Source of the DNA: Pyrenophora tritici-repentis
Taxonomy: Eukaryota; Ascomycota; Dothideomycetes; Pleosporales; Pleosporaceae
Direction of reading: 5' to 3'
Length of the DNA: 64,000 bases
NCBI RefSeq assembly: GCF_003171515.1
Contig: NC_089397.1
Span: forward strand, 186,001-250,000
Shown here: positions 38,671 through 44,859 of the stretch, piece by piece
How the letters are laid out: each line of letters opens with the position of its first letter
How positions within the stretch are numbered: position 1 is the stretch's first letter
The notes under the pieces: model-generated
What the model was told of the DNA's origin: nothing
Databases searched by the model: none
The model's input: the letters and a program-made list of their open reading frames with translations, nothing else
Position numbers and translations under genes: made by a program

Positions 38671-38919
38671 GTTGTAACCAGACTTGTCAACAATCAAGCG
38701 GCTTGCAAGCGCTTGATTGATAGCTTGATAACTATCAATCCCATCAAGTCAAGCTCGCTTATAATAATTTTTTAGCAATCTAAGCTAAGGAGGGTTAGCT
38801 TAATTATTCAGCTTAATGGGCTTGATTAAGGTAGCGCGTGAGGCTACTCGTTTTGCAGCAGGAGCGATTTTACGATAGGTTTTTAGTGTTGTAGTCGTCG
38901 CAGTACTACGCTGGCAAAT

Positions 38920-39048
38920 GGGTCGGGGTGTGGTTGGGGTTGGGTTAGAAATTTTGCGACCCCAACCCAACCCCAACCCATTTGTCAGCGCCAAGCTTAG
39001 GGTTGGGTTGGGGTCGCACGGACCATGGGTTAGGGTTGGGTTATAGTA
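38920..39048. repeat. Left subterminal G-rich repeats, telomere-like words
   Basis: Repeats of GGGTTGGGGTTGGG and TTAGGGTTGGGTT occur in both orientations around a short centre (38939-38980 against 38999-39045). The block GGTCGCACGGACCATGGGTT matches, inverted, the tandem unit at the right end of the element. Confidence 0.85.
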
Positions 39049-39207
39049 AAAAAATTGCAAGATGTATAATATAGATTTCAATAAAAGAAAAGTTTATATA
39101 GTATCACAGTAGATTAACACAGTGTAGCATTAACTAGTTTCATTTATAATATACAGAGGCTTCGCCAGCTAGCATTTAAGCACGTGTATCTAGATATATC
39201 TTATAAT

Positions 39208-39780
39208 CTAGAGAAAAGCTAGTAACTCGCGCGCAAAGTAGCGCCTAGCCAATTGAGAATCCTTCTCTTGAATAGTAACCCTCTTTGCGTGAATAGCATT
39301 GATGTTGCAGTCTATAAAAGTTATTAAATGAAAAATAGTATAGGGTAGATAGACTATACCCTCAAAATAACCAACTAAGAAAGCTTCTGTAGCTTCCTGA
39401 AGAGCTTCGATTGCAGATCGTTGAAAGCGGATATCGGCCTTGTGCACCTGTGCAAATTCGCGCACTACGCGGGAAAAGGGGAGTTTTCGCAAGAGTAGTC
39501 CAAAACCTCTCTGGTATCTCTTGATTTCCCGTAATGCGACAGCTAAGCTAAATTAGAAAATAGCTGTGATAAACGACTGTGATAACCTACTGCCGGCCTT
39601 AAACTTGCGCTTCTTCTTAACAGCTACAGGTGCCTTTCGCGTAGACTTTCCTGCTACTTGACGTCTAGCCTTACTAGCAAGGGCCTTCTGAGCCGGCTTG
39701 CCGCCAGTAACTGTCTTGCCATCAGGACCACCCCGGCCGGCTTTACCGGTGACCTTAGGCCGTGGTTTTGTCCTTGCCAT
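39208..39780 (-). CDS. Transposon-borne histone H3-like protein
   Basis: Exons 39780-39591, 39542-39360 and 39311-39208 (two 48 bp introns) give 158 residues. The tail starts ARTK as in H3. It then has an 18-residue longer region with [14 protein letters not shown], and [20 protein letters not shown] leads into the fold. The complete histone fold is present: [40 protein letters not shown], and [20 protein letters not shown]. Loop 1 has the length of canonical H3, not the longer CENP-A loop. Aligned to H3, Lys4 is kept. Lys9 and Lys14 have counterparts, but the ARKS motifs are lost and Lys27 is replaced by Gln. The C-terminus ([10 protein letters not shown]) is four residues longer. Divergent from the acidic-protein gene over 510 bp. 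Confidence 0.93.
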
Positions 39781-40290
39781 TGCGTAGTAGAGTAGATGAT
39801 GAACGTAGGCGACGTATGTGATTAATTACTGTGATAAATGTGGTCGACAATTAAGAAAGTAGTAGGCTGAAAGAGTTAGGTAGCTGGAAAGTTTGGGCGA
39901 CGGCAATTTCCCGATTTCCGCACTAGTAAAGGCAGCAGCGCACGGACTGCATGACGTAATTTGCTGTTTCACGATCGCATACAACCATTTCTGTTGCAAA
40001 ATCAGTAGCGAGCATATCATACAAACGTGTTAAACTGCTGTGATAAACGCCGAGCTCGCGCATGCGTGCAGCCCAAAAATGAAGGAATCATCGATGTGTT
40101 GATCATTTTGGGTAATTTCCGCGTTTTCGCGCTAGCGCAGGCAGCAGCGCACGGACCATTTCTAGGTGAGCATAATGCTGTCTACCCATTTCTCCAGCCC
40201 CTGACGCCCAGTAACTCCCAACACCTAATAACTCTCTTTACTACATTGAAAACACCCCATTTACAACAGCGCATTATCACAGTCCCCGCC
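39781..40290. promoter_or_regulatory. Bidirectional promoter of the transposon cargo genes
   Basis: 510 bp between the divergent starts of the H3-like and acidic-protein genes. A module containing GGCAGCAGCGCACGGAC occurs twice in the same orientation (39931-39947 and 40140-40156), each time preceded by an AATTTCC...TTTCGC-like stretch. TGTGATAA/TTATCACA words lie at about 39830, 40039 and 40274. A shared set of sites could co-regulate the pair. Confidence 0.55.
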
Positions 40291-41494
40291 ATGCCTGTCG
40301 CGAAAGAGCAAGTCGGCGACGTACCTGAAGGCCTAGTTCCAGCCATCAAACTTGAACCTCCGCCTGGGTTCGAACAAGATGAGTGGGAGCAGCTTACCGA
40401 TGTAATAATCACAGCCATTTATCACAGCTTATGCTAATATAAGCAGGGATTTGCGTGTGAAGCTGACGAGATTGACGGTATCTTAGATCAAAGAGGTAGT
40501 GGGGGTTCACGAAAAGGCCGACCTATCAATTTGAGCGTCCCCTATACTGGCTCTCTGAGTGGTAGCGCCCGTGCTATTGCTCAACGTGAACGCAAAGCTC
40601 TTTTCGATAAAGAGGAGAAGGTACTTGAAAGCGTTAGAACAGCCGACCGCTCCGCGAAGTACCAACTGAAGAAATCGCTTTTGCAACAGCCTAAGTATAA
40701 ATTAGCAAATAGTGCTAGACAGGCTAAGCTGCTAGAGAAAGAGTGGGATATACTTTCAGAGAAGCGGTTTACCCAGAAAAAGTCTGGTAAGTTATCACAG
40801 CTGTTTATCATAGACATCTGCTAATAGACTATAGCTGAATGGCTAGAGACAAACCTAACTCATGTGCATCGTAAATGGGATGCGATCACTAAGCAGGTGG
40901 ATATGAGAAAACACGAGATCACGATTGCGAAAGTGCTTAGCAAAGATGACAAGCCCACCCATGACATTAGTGGTAGAGGAATAGCAAGAATTTACGGCTC
41001 AGGTGGTGTTTTGCAAAAGATTCTTCGAAAGACCTATCAAGAAGGATTAGCAAAGCTTAACAACAACGACTTTGAGAGCAAGGAGGCTAAGAGAGAGTTT
41101 GAGAAGTTCGTGGAGGAACTTACACCTGATGAGATGAAAGTCGTAACTGATAATGACTGGCAGTAAGTTTATCACATCCTTTTATCACAGAGATACTAAT
41201 ATAATAAGGCAACGGGAGCCACCTAGCATTCTCGACTTACTTGGTGACGCTGATATTGAGCTGGAGGGTGATAAGCCGTACGTTAAAGGTGACGATAGCG
41301 ATGAGTGTGAAGAAGAGGTTGACTATGACTCTGATCTTGAGGAGCATTTCAATTCACTTGAAGACGAGTACGAGGATGACGACCAGTGGGCTGCTGTACA
41401 GAAGCAGGCAGCGCTTGAGGAGTCTGAGGAATCTGAGGACTCTGAGTTTGAGGGGTTTCCGGATTCTGATGCCGCTTCTGAGTCTGATAATTAG
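40291..41494 (+). CDS. Transposon-borne protein with coiled-coil centre and acidic tail
   Basis: Exons 40291-40401, 40447-40786, 40835-41162 and 41209-41494 (introns 45, 48 and 46 bp) give 354 residues, all phases matching. The N-terminus is short and Pro/Glu-rich. Next is a Gly/Arg segment (RGSGGSRKGRPINLS), then a Lys/Glu-rich helical centre likely to form coiled coils (AIAQRERKALFDKEEKVLES, QPKYKLANSARQAKLLEKEW). A conserved-looking ISGRGIARIYGSGGVLQKIL follows. The last 90 residues are strongly acidic (DECEEEVDYDSDLEEHF, LEESEESEDSEFEGF). I recognise no domain. Acidic tails of this kind are typical of histone chaperones, and its partner gene encodes an H3-like histone, so a chaperone or assembly role is an attractive inference, not a demonstrated one. 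Confidence 0.88.
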
Positions 41495-41843
41495 AGTTTT
41501 AGGCTAAGACACTTTCAAGCATTGAGGGATAGTAAGCAGTTATCACAACTAATTAACACGGATTATTGCGCCATATAATCTTAACTTAAGATTGTGATCT
41601 GTCATTTATGCAGATTAATATCCGTGCACTCCTGACGATCTCTGTGTTTACTATGAGGCATTAAAAATGATATTCCGCTAGTAATATGCCAAGGTTTCAA
41701 GTTAAATTACAGGCGTCATAGCGCAAGCAAAGCTGAGAGGAGCGTGAGAAGCCTTGAGTCCTACATCCAAACTTAAACTTCTCAACTTTTTCCTATTGTG
41801 TGCTACTACTATTAATGCCTTATTCTACTACTTTCTAGAAGCG

Positions 41844-44490
41844 ATGGACATAGCTGCACAGTCTATTGAGCTTATGCCTAATCCTACTAATATTGAATTT
41901 CCGGAGGACCTCAACTGTTTAAAAATCAATTCTCCACAGGTTACAAAGGGGGGTGACAGGAGAACGATTGGATTAGTGAAATATCCAAATAATCGTTTTC
42001 TGCAAGATTATAGTGTAAGTGAGATCTTAGGGACATGGACAGCGTCGTGGAGTAATACTAGCTGGGGTATAAACCCTAAAAATGATAACCCACGATGGAA
42101 CTCTCCTACTCGCTATGGCACAGTATGGTTACGATTTGGAGAAGCTGCTGAGCTTCGAACTGGCCACCCCTACGTGTTCTGCTACAACTGTAGTCTTGCA
42201 CTCCAGCATCCAAATCTAGGTGGTATTGGGACAAAGCACCTTATTACTCATCTTAAAACAAAAAGCTGTCGAAATGTCCTTACTCCTATTCATAATGAGG
42301 CAGACTTATCGGCCTCTACTCTATCCCAACGTCAACAAAGAAACAGTACTTCATCAATACCAGCTTACACTACTACTACCTTTGAAAAGGAGCTTGTACG
42401 GGTAGTAATCGACAGCAACTGGTCATTCCGAACAGTTGAACGACCATCTTTCCATCGATTTCTTCGGTTCCTTCGACCAGATACTGTGATAATTAGTCGT
42501 TGTAAATTCAAGACGATATTCAAGAGTCAACATGAGGAAGCAAAAAGGTCTATCCTTCGAGATCTTGGAAAATCAACAAAGATCTCAATCGCCTTAGATG
42601 CCTGGTCTGCAGCTAATCACCTCTGCTTTCTTGCGGTAAAGGGTTACTACATTAACAAAGACTGGAAACTTCAGGAAAAGCTACTTGACTTTCTCCCTAT
42701 GCGCGGCAGGCACACCGGTACTTCTATGGCAGACGAGGTACTGCATATTCTTCTGGATACAAAGACCAAAACCCAGCTTCTAGCTATTACTTGTGATAAC
42801 GCTAGTAACAATAGCGTACTTGCTCGCACTCTCCAGTCTAAACTCCAAGAAGTCGACATTCAGTGGAGTGCCAGAGAAAACACTATCCCTTGCCTTGCCC
42901 ATATTATCAACCTCGTTGTCCAGGATATTATCCAACACCTTCGGCTAGCAGCAACTACAGAGTTAGGAGCAAGGGATACCCTACAGAGACGTCATATACA
43001 GGACATTGAGACGCATATTTCAGTCCCAAATTCCCTTCGCAAGGTATTTCGCTTTTAACACATTCATTTATCACATACTAATAATAGACTAGATAAGGGC
43101 GATTTGTATCGCTATTGACGTATCACCTCAACGCTTTGAGCGGTTTATTGCGGTACAACAACATCTACCGCCAAAGGAGCGATTATCTGTTATCCGCGAC
43201 GTGAAAACCCGATGGAACTCAACATACGACATGTTAGAGCGCGCGCTCAAAATCCAAAAATATATTGATGAATGGCTTAAACAAGAAATCTTGCTAAGGC
43301 CAGGTAGTCACCTGGATAGCTCTCTAGACAACAATCAAATGGCTGAGATTGATTTCCGGGATCTTAAACGCCTCCGCTTATCTTCGACTGAGTGGCATCA
43401 TCTCGAACTCGTTACTGAGATGCTTAAACGGTTTAAAACAGCAACTAGCTTCCTCAGCCAGAACGAGAAGCCCCAGATTCAGTATATTTGGTTAATGTAC
43501 AATCGACTGTTTGATTTCTTGGACAAAATGTCAGAGGACCTAGATGAGGATGAAGAAAATCAAGATGATAGGGAATGGCTAGACGTAGTACGAGCTGCAG
43601 CTGACAGGGGTCGTCTAAAACTGAGCAAGTACTATTCGAAGACAGACGCAGAACGTGGGTTCTTGTTTAATTGTGCCACTATCCTTGATCCAACGCAGAA
43701 GCTTACAGCATATGAAGTATGATTATCACAGCTATTTATCACAGTCACGCTCTAATTACGCTTATAGGACGATTCATGGGAGCCACAGTACAAGCATCTC
43801 TACCGAGGCCAATTTCTTGCTTACCTTGATCGTTATGATAATACGGACGGGAGAGGTTCAACCCCAGGCTCTAGCATAGTCAAAAGGAGGTCACTTGGGA
43901 ATGAGTGGTTCAGAAAGCCAGCTCCTCCCCCTACATCAGCGTTAAACAGCTTTTCTTCCCAGAACTCTTCACTAGTAGAATCAGACAAGACAACTGGCCC
44001 AACCCGCCAAGAAGGAGAGTCCTACCTTAGTACTGCCTGTGTAATGACAGATGACTCTTTCGATATTCTAGAGTGGTGGAAGACGAACGAGCCTACCTAC
44101 CCACGACTATCCCAAGTGGCGAAGGATATACTAGCAATACCAATTGCTCAGGTTGGGGTTGAAAGAGTTTTCAATGTTGCTAAGGATGTTATTGGTAGTC
44201 GGAGGCACCGACTATCTGCCCGGACAATACAGCAGATAATGGTTCTTAAGGATACAATATCTCAAGAGGAAGAACAGGGTCTAGACTACCTAGTTGCTCA
44301 ATTAGGGGAGGATGGAGAGCCAATTGACGAGGTTAATGATCTTTTTGAGCTTCCAGCCTCGTTAGAGCATACCTTCGATATAGATGAGGAGAACCAGACT
44401 ACAGAAGAAGAGTCGGAGGAAGAGGTCCAGGAGGAGCGTCAATTGCCACCTCGAAAGCGCCAGCGTCCTCAGCGCTACCGTGATAATTAG
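41844..44490 (+). CDS. hAT-family transposase (intact, three exons)
   Basis: Exons 41844-43043, 43093-43716 and 43768-44490 (introns 49 and 51 bp) give 848 residues. A BED-type zinc finger is visible near residues 105-145 (FCYNCSLALQHP...KHLITHLKTKSC). The RNase-H-like core has ISIALDAWSAANH, LAITCDNASNNSVLA and the TRWNSTYDML motif. The C-terminal hAT dimerisation region is AQVGVERVFNVAKDVIGSRR followed by HRLSARTIQQIMVLKDTI. After that comes an acidic tail ending in PPRKRQRPQRYRDN, a likely nuclear signal. hAT transposases cut and paste with 8 bp duplications, matching the flanks here. The frame runs open upstream to a TTG, but the first ATG is 41844. The first intron's acceptor is the second of two AG sites, since the first would bring a stop. 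Confidence 0.92.
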
Positions 44491-44586
44491 CTGTGTTAAT
44501 ATATCTCGTTTTATGTATCTACTATATCATCAACGTGTACACATTATCTTAATTAAGTGTTGTTCCGTTAAAGTACCCAAAAAATA

Positions 44587-44760
44587 TAACCCAACCCCAA
44601 CCCAACCCAGCCCAACCCAACCCCAACCCTACCACTTGGTCTGTGCGACCCCAGCCCAGCCCTAACCCATGGTCTGTGCGACCCCAACCCAACCCTAACC
44701 CATGGTCTGTGCGACCCCAACCCAACCCCAACCCAAGACTGGGTATACCCAACCCATTTG
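44587..44760. repeat. Right subterminal C-rich repeats with a 33 bp tandem unit
   Basis: GGTCTGTGCGACC recurs at 44638, 44671 and 44704, giving three 33 bp units that each contain CCCAACCCAACCCTAACCCA or a close variant. It is the inverted counterpart of the left subterminal repeat. Such subterminal arrays are usual transposase-binding regions in hAT elements. Confidence 0.88.
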
Positions 44761-44859
44761 CCAGCGTACGCAGTACTAGTACGTTATTAGCCTAACTTCT
44801 ACAACCTACTATTACGTTACTTTTTTTGCTTCCGTCGCCCTTCTTATATTTCCACCGCT

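Follow-up and report, generated by a model that had tools for sequence, protein, structure and literature searches.

The element at positions 38907-44768 of the window, the 64,000-nucleotide stretch of DNA analyzed here, is a 5.86-kb hAT transposon containing three genes, namely that of its transposase, a central one and a histone H3-like gene of three exons (H3L). The best explanation of the data as a whole, considered probable, is that it is the long form of an H3L-carrying hAT, that H3L is an old H3-like gene, and that a short form was derived from the long one by deletion. The element itself is already published and is not new. What looks new over the published account is that the H3L family seems to be old, with members in related fungi, and that a conserved partner gene seems to adjoin H3L.

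Structure of the element and its three genes

The features of the element are as follows.

38899..38906, no strand: left target-site duplication CGCAGTAC, same 8 bp on both flanks
38907..38923, plus: left 17-bp terminal inverted repeat (TIR) TACGCTGGCAAATGGGT, perfect
39101..39122, plus: composite site near the left end, outside introns (site search)
39208..39311, minus: H3L exon 3 (gene model; PF00125; P0001)
39312..39359, minus: H3L intron 2, the sole intron of seven without the repeated site (gene model, site search)
39360..39542, minus: H3L exon 2 (gene model, Pfam)
39543..39590, minus: H3L intron 1, composite site 39564-39585 (gene model, site search)
39591..39780, minus: H3L exon 1, tail (gene model, Pfam)
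39816..39837, minus: composite site preceding the start codon of H3L (site search)
40261..40282, plus: composite site immediately before the start codon of the central ORF (site search)
40291..40401, plus: central ORF exon 1 (gene model; P0121)
40402..40446, plus: central ORF intron 1, composite site 40406-40427 (gene model, site search)
40447..40786, plus: central ORF exon 2 (gene model)
40787..40834, plus: central ORF intron 2, composite site 40792-40813; short-form deletion junction GACTAT lies here
40835..41162, plus: central ORF exon 3 (gene model)
41163..41208, plus: central ORF intron 3, composite site 41169-41190 (gene model, site search)
41209..41494, plus: central ORF exon 4, encoding the acidic tail (gene model)
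41540..41561, plus: composite site downstream of the central ORF (site search)
41844..43043, plus: hAT transposase exon 1 (gene model)
43044..43092, plus: transposase intron 1, composite site 43055-43076 (gene model, site search)
43093..43716, plus: hAT transposase exon 2 (gene model)
43717..43767, plus: transposase intron 2, composite site 43723-43744 (gene model, site search)
43768..44490, plus: hAT transposase exon 3, containing the Dimer_Tnp_hAT domain (gene model, Pfam)
44478..44499, minus: composite site close to the right end, overlapping the stop codon of the transposase (site search)
44752..44768, minus: right 17-bp TIR, exact reverse complement of TACGCTGGCAAATGGGT
44769..44776, no strand: right target-site duplication CGCAGTAC, same 8 bp on both flanks

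The initial annotation had described perfect 17-bp inverted repeats with an 8-bp duplication at both ends, enclosing an intact hAT transposase and a three-exon gene with the whole H3 fold, and all of these were borne out. The terminal arms pair over 21 nt at 95%. The 8-bp duplication, the short perfect TIRs and the C-terminal hAT dimerization domain (Dimer_Tnp_hAT, PF05699; E 2.4e-20 by Pfam) of the predicted three-exon, 848-aa transposase are marks of the hAT superfamily. The RNase-H-like PF14372 scored E 0.041 on the transposase, below the family cut-off, and the precomputed domains PF27041 and PF27039 are present in many transposase homologues.

H3L encodes 158 aa on the minus strand (exons 39780-39591, 39542-39360 and 39311-39208). 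Pfam Histone (PF00125) covers residues 34-148 with E 1.1e-31, and solved H3 chains were matched at E 2e-39. P0001, a public Pyrenophora tritici-repentis protein of equal length, is 99% identical to H3L from end to end, indicating that the same splicing has been annotated by others. Splicing of the introns, a point raised in the initial annotation, is matched by public protein models; ESTs for H3L were reported by Manning et al. 2013 (PMC3538342), where a figure legend says that ESTs are drawn with introns. The two H3L introns fall in or at the histone fold; for host H3, one interruption was seen, at roughly residue 18 of the N-terminal tail.

The third gene, unlisted in the initial annotation, is the central ORF (354 aa, four exons, 40291-41494). 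The public protein P0121 agrees with the model over its whole length with one residue different, and domain and structure searches gave no convincing family or fold match.

Genomic copies, the short form and the composite site

The 17-bp end pattern gave 112 matches in the P. tritici-repentis genome at up to one mismatch, 62 of them exact, whereas the pattern read backwards, used as the control, gave 0 in the same genome, indicating that the repeated ends are not due to chance. The exact matches pair into 31 intervals (11 long, 18 single short and 2 double short copies), and every one of them contains H3L (11/11 long and 20/20 other). The initial annotation is upheld in that H3L sits inside the termini of the element and is mobilized together with it; copies lacking H3L, which it had named as contrary evidence, did not occur among those with exact ends. 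As support it had asked for several copies at unrelated sites, each with an 8-bp duplication of its own: the duplications are perfect and all different in 21 of the 31 copies, in four others the halves are swapped between two pairs of copies, and six are unmatched. An intact H3L was counted in 30 of 33 units. At many sites the transposase, the central ORF and H3L are found together between the TIRs as a single unit.

The short form (2.59 kb) arose through an internal deletion that spared H3L and fused the central ORF with the end of the transposase. Since its junction GACTAT equals the published one and the public H3L proteins bear the P. tritici-repentis name, the element studied here is the long form of the published H3L-carrying hAT of this species.

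The transposase search of the genome, in which 53 of 697 candidates were scored with E up to 1e-20, listed 56 matches. Among these, only one close copy falls outside the 31 intervals, namely a fragment at C2:4951952-4954091 with matches covering residues 68-747. No histone match was found near this fragment.

The composite site TTATCACAG-N4-TTATCACAG is present in six of the seven element introns, and five of its 11 occurrences in the element lie outside introns. In ten relatives, introns that were read through likewise contain the composite site or can encode it. A genome search with the strict form of the paired site gave 54 matches, of which 53 fall by coordinates in the H3L hAT family (one in the fragment) and 1 outside, which argues against an introner-like element spread through unrelated host genes. 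The introner-like elements of fungi described in PMC4457414 are alike in that similar introns occur in several genes, but here the shared sequence belongs almost exclusively to a single element family and is found outside introns as well.

Ancestry and chromatin features of H3L

Among the 11 long copies, ten are almost the same in sequence: nine differ from the window copy by 0.09-0.22% with gaps not counted, indicating that the present amplification is recent. This near-identity favors a recent transduplication, in which the element lately captured and copied an ordinary H3 and H3L is a drifting passenger without function, as do the drift suggested by Manning et al. 2013 (PMC3538342) and a divergence of H3L far exceeding that of host H3. 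However, the age of an amplification is not that of the capture. In the protein tree, H3L falls in one clade of eight rows (support 100/97) together with H3-like proteins of P. teres, Paraphoma (P0058), Alternaria (P0065), Massariosphaeria and metagenomes, and a grouping with host H3 was rejected by the AU test (p 0.0002). The relatives of H3L retain open frames and DNA-contact residues, and a central ORF relic with 69% identity over 80 residues is also present in the same genome. Recent transduplication is therefore regarded as unlikely, and the published view of a recent transduplicate with drift fits poorly. Rather than being a fresh copy of host H3, H3L probably belongs to an old H3-like family separate from it, as judged from the protein tree rather than from DNA of other species. 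Given the length of the H3L branches, the grouping could partly reflect long-branch attraction, though derived residues are common to the rows. Grouping with the host CenH3, which we read locus L010 to be, was likewise rejected (AU p 0.004), so H3L is not placed as CenH3/CENP-A.

Alternatively, H3L may be a Pleosporales host-family H3 variant that elements picked up or merely adjoined, mobile in P. tritici-repentis only. Consistent with this, neither an H3L between TIRs nor one linked to a hAT transposase was seen outside P. tritici-repentis, and P. teres, Alternaria, Paraphoma and Massariosphaeria were absent as labels among 50 transposase matches, many of them unlabelled (8000 candidates of similar length scored). 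Linkage of H3L to the central ORF outside P. tritici-repentis is known from one neighborhood, in P. teres, and rests on locus tags: CFE70_001393 (H3L relative) and CFE70_001394 (central ORF relative) are consecutive, and both records give the longest contig as 5,608,903. That this neighbor of an H3L relative is itself a central ORF relative speaks against a host variant, as does a second central ORF (P0131) with a second transposase (P0146) in P. tritici-repentis, both records giving a longest contig of 17,060 bp, which suggests that the central ORF is a gene of elements outside the H3L element family too. The host-variant reading is accordingly given little weight, and an old gene of the element is preferred.

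The DNA-contact positions of H3L remain conserved, while its tail has changed. At the positions we take to be the DNA contacts of H3, 123 of 133 cells from seven H3L rows hold the canonical residue, compared with 270 of 420 elsewhere in the fold (Fisher p 1.6e-11, a value too small because the cells share ancestry). By this protein comparison, H3L has probably been kept as a working histone fold.

The contexts TARKS9 and ARKS27 are read by H3K9/K27 methyltransferases and HP1. Both are missing from the window H3L, whose tail (27 residues not shown) continues ASKARRQV, excluding a canonical H3 tail. Neither P0067 nor any of the nine rows that bear H3L signatures contains TARKS, whereas 92 of the 120 listed matches do. 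With the DNA contacts of the fold conserved, this would suit an anti-silencing histone, by which nucleosomes containing H3L would let the copies escape heterochromatin. A freely evolving tail would look alike, however, and the change is not uniform over the clade, since P0068 (PRKT) and P0067 (ASKS) have a K9-like lysine in near-canonical surroundings, and P0067 and P0058 retain AARKS at K27; P0058 is without its N terminus. Any escape is also not complete, as one copy, L026, has been heavily hit by RIP. Anti-silencing is thus judged quite improbable, and an escape of H3L nucleosomes from H3K9-type silencing would be equally doubtful as a step of the preferred mechanism. It is possible, though less likely than not, that the H3L protein is produced, combines with host H4 and is built into nucleosomes, perhaps at the element or close by, and that the acidic central protein assists it; the chaperone idea for the central protein comes from its acidic tail only. 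The initial annotation had suggested that H3L may mark the chromatin of the element, resist silencing, guide target choice or package the excised transposon. A broader scheme is highly speculative, in which a Pleosporales hAT lineage would carry a long-lived chromatin module made up of an H3 variant of its own, with a nucleosome-forming fold and altered silencing motifs in the tail, a dedicated acidic partner, and repeated 13-bp-spaced sites for a regulator encoded by the element, the module keeping the element's chromatin out of H3K9-type silencing.

Comparison with published hAT-H3 elements

In the published account of the known element, the histone gene is a captured passenger. If H3L has instead long been a gene of the element, next to a conserved partner, a histone can remain in the possession of transposons over long spans of time, chromatin made by an element can be put to a direct test, and the occurrence of two hAT-H3 associations, separate from each other, in Dothideomycetes (Manning 2013, PMC3538342; Dhillon 2019, PMC6710886) would look less accidental. 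These two papers overturn the initial annotation's statement that no described hAT family encodes a core-histone homologue. A recent transduplication is close to the reading in Manning 2013, and Dhillon 2019 likewise treats the event as recent and independent.

The element description in Manning et al. 2013 (PMC3538342), from P. tritici-repentis, agrees with the present one in the hAT ends, the transposase, central ORF and H3L between TIRs, the long and short forms, the junction gactat and the fused short-form gene. The long form was considered likely autonomous, and H3L "may have undergone drift", whereas relatives in other genera were found here. Their reference held 10 long and 16 short copies of about 5.6 and 2.3 kb, compared with 11 long and 20 short intervals (18 single and 2 double) here, where the two forms measure 5.86 and 2.59 kb.

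The hAT described by Dhillon et al. 2019 (PMC6710886) represents a separate capture in Mycosphaerellaceae, found in Pseudocercospora fijiensis and five relatives. It likewise has 8-bp duplications and an H3-like sequence inside but is about 9.5 kb long, and its H3-like copies are reported to derive from an intronless transcript or retrocopy and to be all inactivated by RIP. For their consensus sequences the authors found no similarity to that of P. tritici-repentis, and in their tree, which is without the H3L relatives, the P. tritici-repentis H3L is closest to ordinary H3.

Organization and copies of the element

The hAT element was delimited, as the initial annotation held, by perfect 17-bp inverted ends and a flanking 8-bp duplication (CGCAGTAC). 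Three genes were modeled within it, of which H3L is the H3-like histone gene and the central ORF lies between H3L and the transposase gene.

Features of the element in the window
38907-44768: hAT element
Within 38907-44768, minus strand: H3L, 3 exons, 158 aa
Within 38907-44768, plus strand: central ORF, 4 exons, 354 aa
Within 38907-44768, plus strand: hAT transposase, 3 exons, 848 aa

H3L and the central ORF point away from each other, their start codons lying 510 bp apart. The reading of H3L as a three-exon gene with an H3 fold was confirmed by a Pfam match to the histone fold (E 1.1e-31) and by the public P. tritici-repentis protein P0001, which reproduced the model at full length with 99% identity. 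The central ORF model was reproduced at full length by another public protein of this species, P0121, with a single residue different, and the hAT dimerisation domain of the transposase was matched by Pfam (E 2.4e-20). Repeats that are G-rich on one strand, such as GGGTTAGGGTTGGGTT, make up both element ends (38919-39045 and 44585-44756); they are telomere-like, and at the right end a unit of ~33 bp is present some three times.

Cargo and transposase form one repeated, duplication-flanked unit. In the genome holding the window (40.9 Mb, 41 contigs), the end pattern gave 112 matches at ≤1 mismatch, and the 62 exact ones paired into 31 intervals, a count that takes exact ends only and leaves copies with altered ends outside it. 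H3L was present in 31/31 intervals, including the window copy (L049), with 33 H3L units altogether, and a genome search for H3L reported no match beyond these 33. A perfect 8-bp duplication flanked 21 of the 31 copies, and all 21 sequences differed; in six copies the duplication had no match. The duplication halves were swapped within two pairs of neighboring copies, L034/L035 on contig C4 and L045/L046 on contig C6, as expected after inter-copy recombination, indicating rearrangement.

Forms of the 31 intervals
Long (5.86 kb, with transposase): 11
Plain short (internal deletion derivative keeping H3L): 15
Short with nested insertions: 3 (L045, L046, L054)
Palindromic double-short: 2

The two palindromic intervals, L048 (C7) and L055 (C18), are mirror images of each other and may represent one locus assembled twice or a duplication. 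Relative to the window copy, nine long copies showed 0.09-0.22% difference (gaps uncounted). The transposase search reported 56 matches (53 of 697 candidates scored); among those outside the 31 intervals, the close ones all came from a single C2 fragment, identical (100%) across the 601 bases compared, and the remainder showed 24-30% identity only. Four pairs of ends carrying a one-base change (CGCTGGTAAATGGGTCG), at G000:C5:244073-244202 and at three comparable places on C5 and C6, resemble very small non-autonomous elements, the two ends of a pair being ~130 bp apart. A decayed relic of a central ORF (G000:C7:2008350-2009000), with 69% identity over residues 57-136, suggests that this genome has older members of the lineage.

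Integrity, conservation, and relatives of H3L

H3L was intact in 30/33 units, 27 of which encode one identical protein; an E-to-G change is common to the window copy and L051, and L039 carries one other change. The non-intact units were in L026 (mutations with stops), L041 (one-base gap), and L045 (interrupted). The long copy L026 (G000:C1:7525429-7531889) differed from the window copy by 4.8%, and its C-to-T changes fell at 177/704 CpA vs 9/843 CpT, 12/540 CpC, and 25/451 CpG, which is a RIP signature (CpA to TpA). The presence of this single RIP-damaged copy among nearly identical long copies shows that the family has been reached by host defence on at least one occasion.

Among the best 120 of 7926 matches, a sample beyond which more relatives may exist, H3L-like proteins were found in P. 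teres (P0054, P0093), Paraphoma (P0058), Alternaria alternata (P0065), and Massariosphaeria (P0066), together with two metagenome-type records, P0067 and P0068, called H3L only after falling within the H3L clade of an initial 27-row tree. In a 17-row tree these proteins and the window H3L formed a single clade (support 100/97), also recovered in the initial 27-row tree (98/96), and its long branches call for caution. Constraining H3L to group with host H3 was rejected at a cost of 40 log-likelihood units (AU p 0.0002), as was constraining it to group with host CenH3 (21 units, AU p 0.004). H3L rows share EDCN[I/L]N or EDTNIN where canonical H3 has EDTNLC, and RYY or RYF (HYY in P0067) where canonical H3 ends RRLRG. 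The H3L introns fall between G and TVALRE and between YFE and DCN; the sole interruption seen in host H3 falls in the N tail, leaving the fold uninterrupted. Judged from sequence, H3L is probably old.

Conservation was counted over seven H3L rows, with P0093 left out. The canonical residue was kept in 123/133 cells at positions which we take to be nucleosomal DNA contacts, in 53/63 cells at presumed four-helix-bundle positions, and in 270/420 cells at other fold positions. Fisher p-values against other positions were 1.6e-11 (DNA contacts) and 0.0015 (four-helix bundle), both of which overstate significance, as the rows are related by descent. The canonical TARKS9 context was missing in all nine H3L-signature rows and in P0067; the K9 region reads ASKS in P0067 and PRKT in P0068, and P0058 is without its start. 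AARKS was retained at the K27 region in P0058 and P0067.

The central ORF and a composite direct-repeat site

The central ORF had 22 protein matches, including ones from P. tritici-repentis, P. teres, P. seminiperda, Boeremia, Exserohilum, and Parastagonospora. In P. teres 0-1, the relatives of H3L and the central ORF (CFE70_001393 and CFE70_001394) carry consecutive locus tags and share the same longest-contig size, 5,608,903 bp; likewise, in P. tritici-repentis a longest-contig size of 17,060 bp is common to an additional central ORF (P0131, 44%) and an additional transposase (P0146, 68%). The C-terminal 56-88 residues are acidic, with net charge −17 to −37 in nine full-length rows, our own included. 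An AlphaFold model from 12 sequences was mostly helical (mean pLDDT 74.3), and its comparison with known folds gave no convincing match. From the acidic tail and the neighboring gene, a histone chaperone would be our guess.

The element also contains 11 composite sites, TTATCACAG-N4-TTATCACAG, with two copies exactly 13 bp apart and ≤2 mismatches allowed per half. None was found in the element at the other spacings from 9 to 39, and 100 first-order Markov sequences gave a mean of 0.05 and a maximum of 1. Six of the seven introns carry one site each, always sense; of the other five, two lie near the element ends, one at each, one lies upstream of the start codon of H3L, one upstream of that of the central ORF, and one after the central ORF. 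By coordinates, 53 of 54 genome matches to the strict form belong to this hAT family (one in the C2 fragment), and the remaining match lies outside a zinc-knuckle reading frame, past its end. The reverse strand includes TGATAA, presumably a GATA-factor core, and the site may either bind a protein or act in splicing.

The composite (≤2 mismatches in total) could be encoded by the read-through peptide in 10/10 relatives whose protein records contain read-through introns, a rate that is not unbiased since these were chosen by eye, partly on look-alike peptides; it was encodable in 1/10 records without such an intron, in 1/36 more distant transposases, and in shuffles at 0.055 per protein. At ≤1 mismatch, sense matches at spacing 13 numbered 8, in 7/10 relatives; elsewhere, 3 sense matches occurred at spacings 11 and 15 together and 1 antisense match at 18. 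Since these ten relatives, with just 41-57% identity to the window's proteins, can still encode it, the site is likely under selection.

Comparison with described H3-carrying hATs

H3L would be expressed, as published ESTs suggest (Manning et al. 2013, PMC3538342), and its product may fold with H4 and join chromatin, possibly on the element itself, where the changed tail could blunt silencing. The initial annotation's view that no hAT family encoding a core-histone homologue had been described does not hold, because Manning et al. and Dhillon et al. (2019, PMC6710886) already report hAT-H3 elements. The P. fijiensis element of Dhillon et al., found also in five relatives, is a separate hAT with RIP-inactivated H3 copies; there the P. 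tritici-repentis case is termed recent and independent, and its H3L is nearest to ordinary H3 in the tree. Manning et al. describe the same element as ours, with H3L, which "may have undergone drift", a central ORF of unknown function, and a hAT transposase between TIRs, in 10 long and 16 short copies; the published short-form deletion junction, gactat, is identical to the GACTAT observed here.
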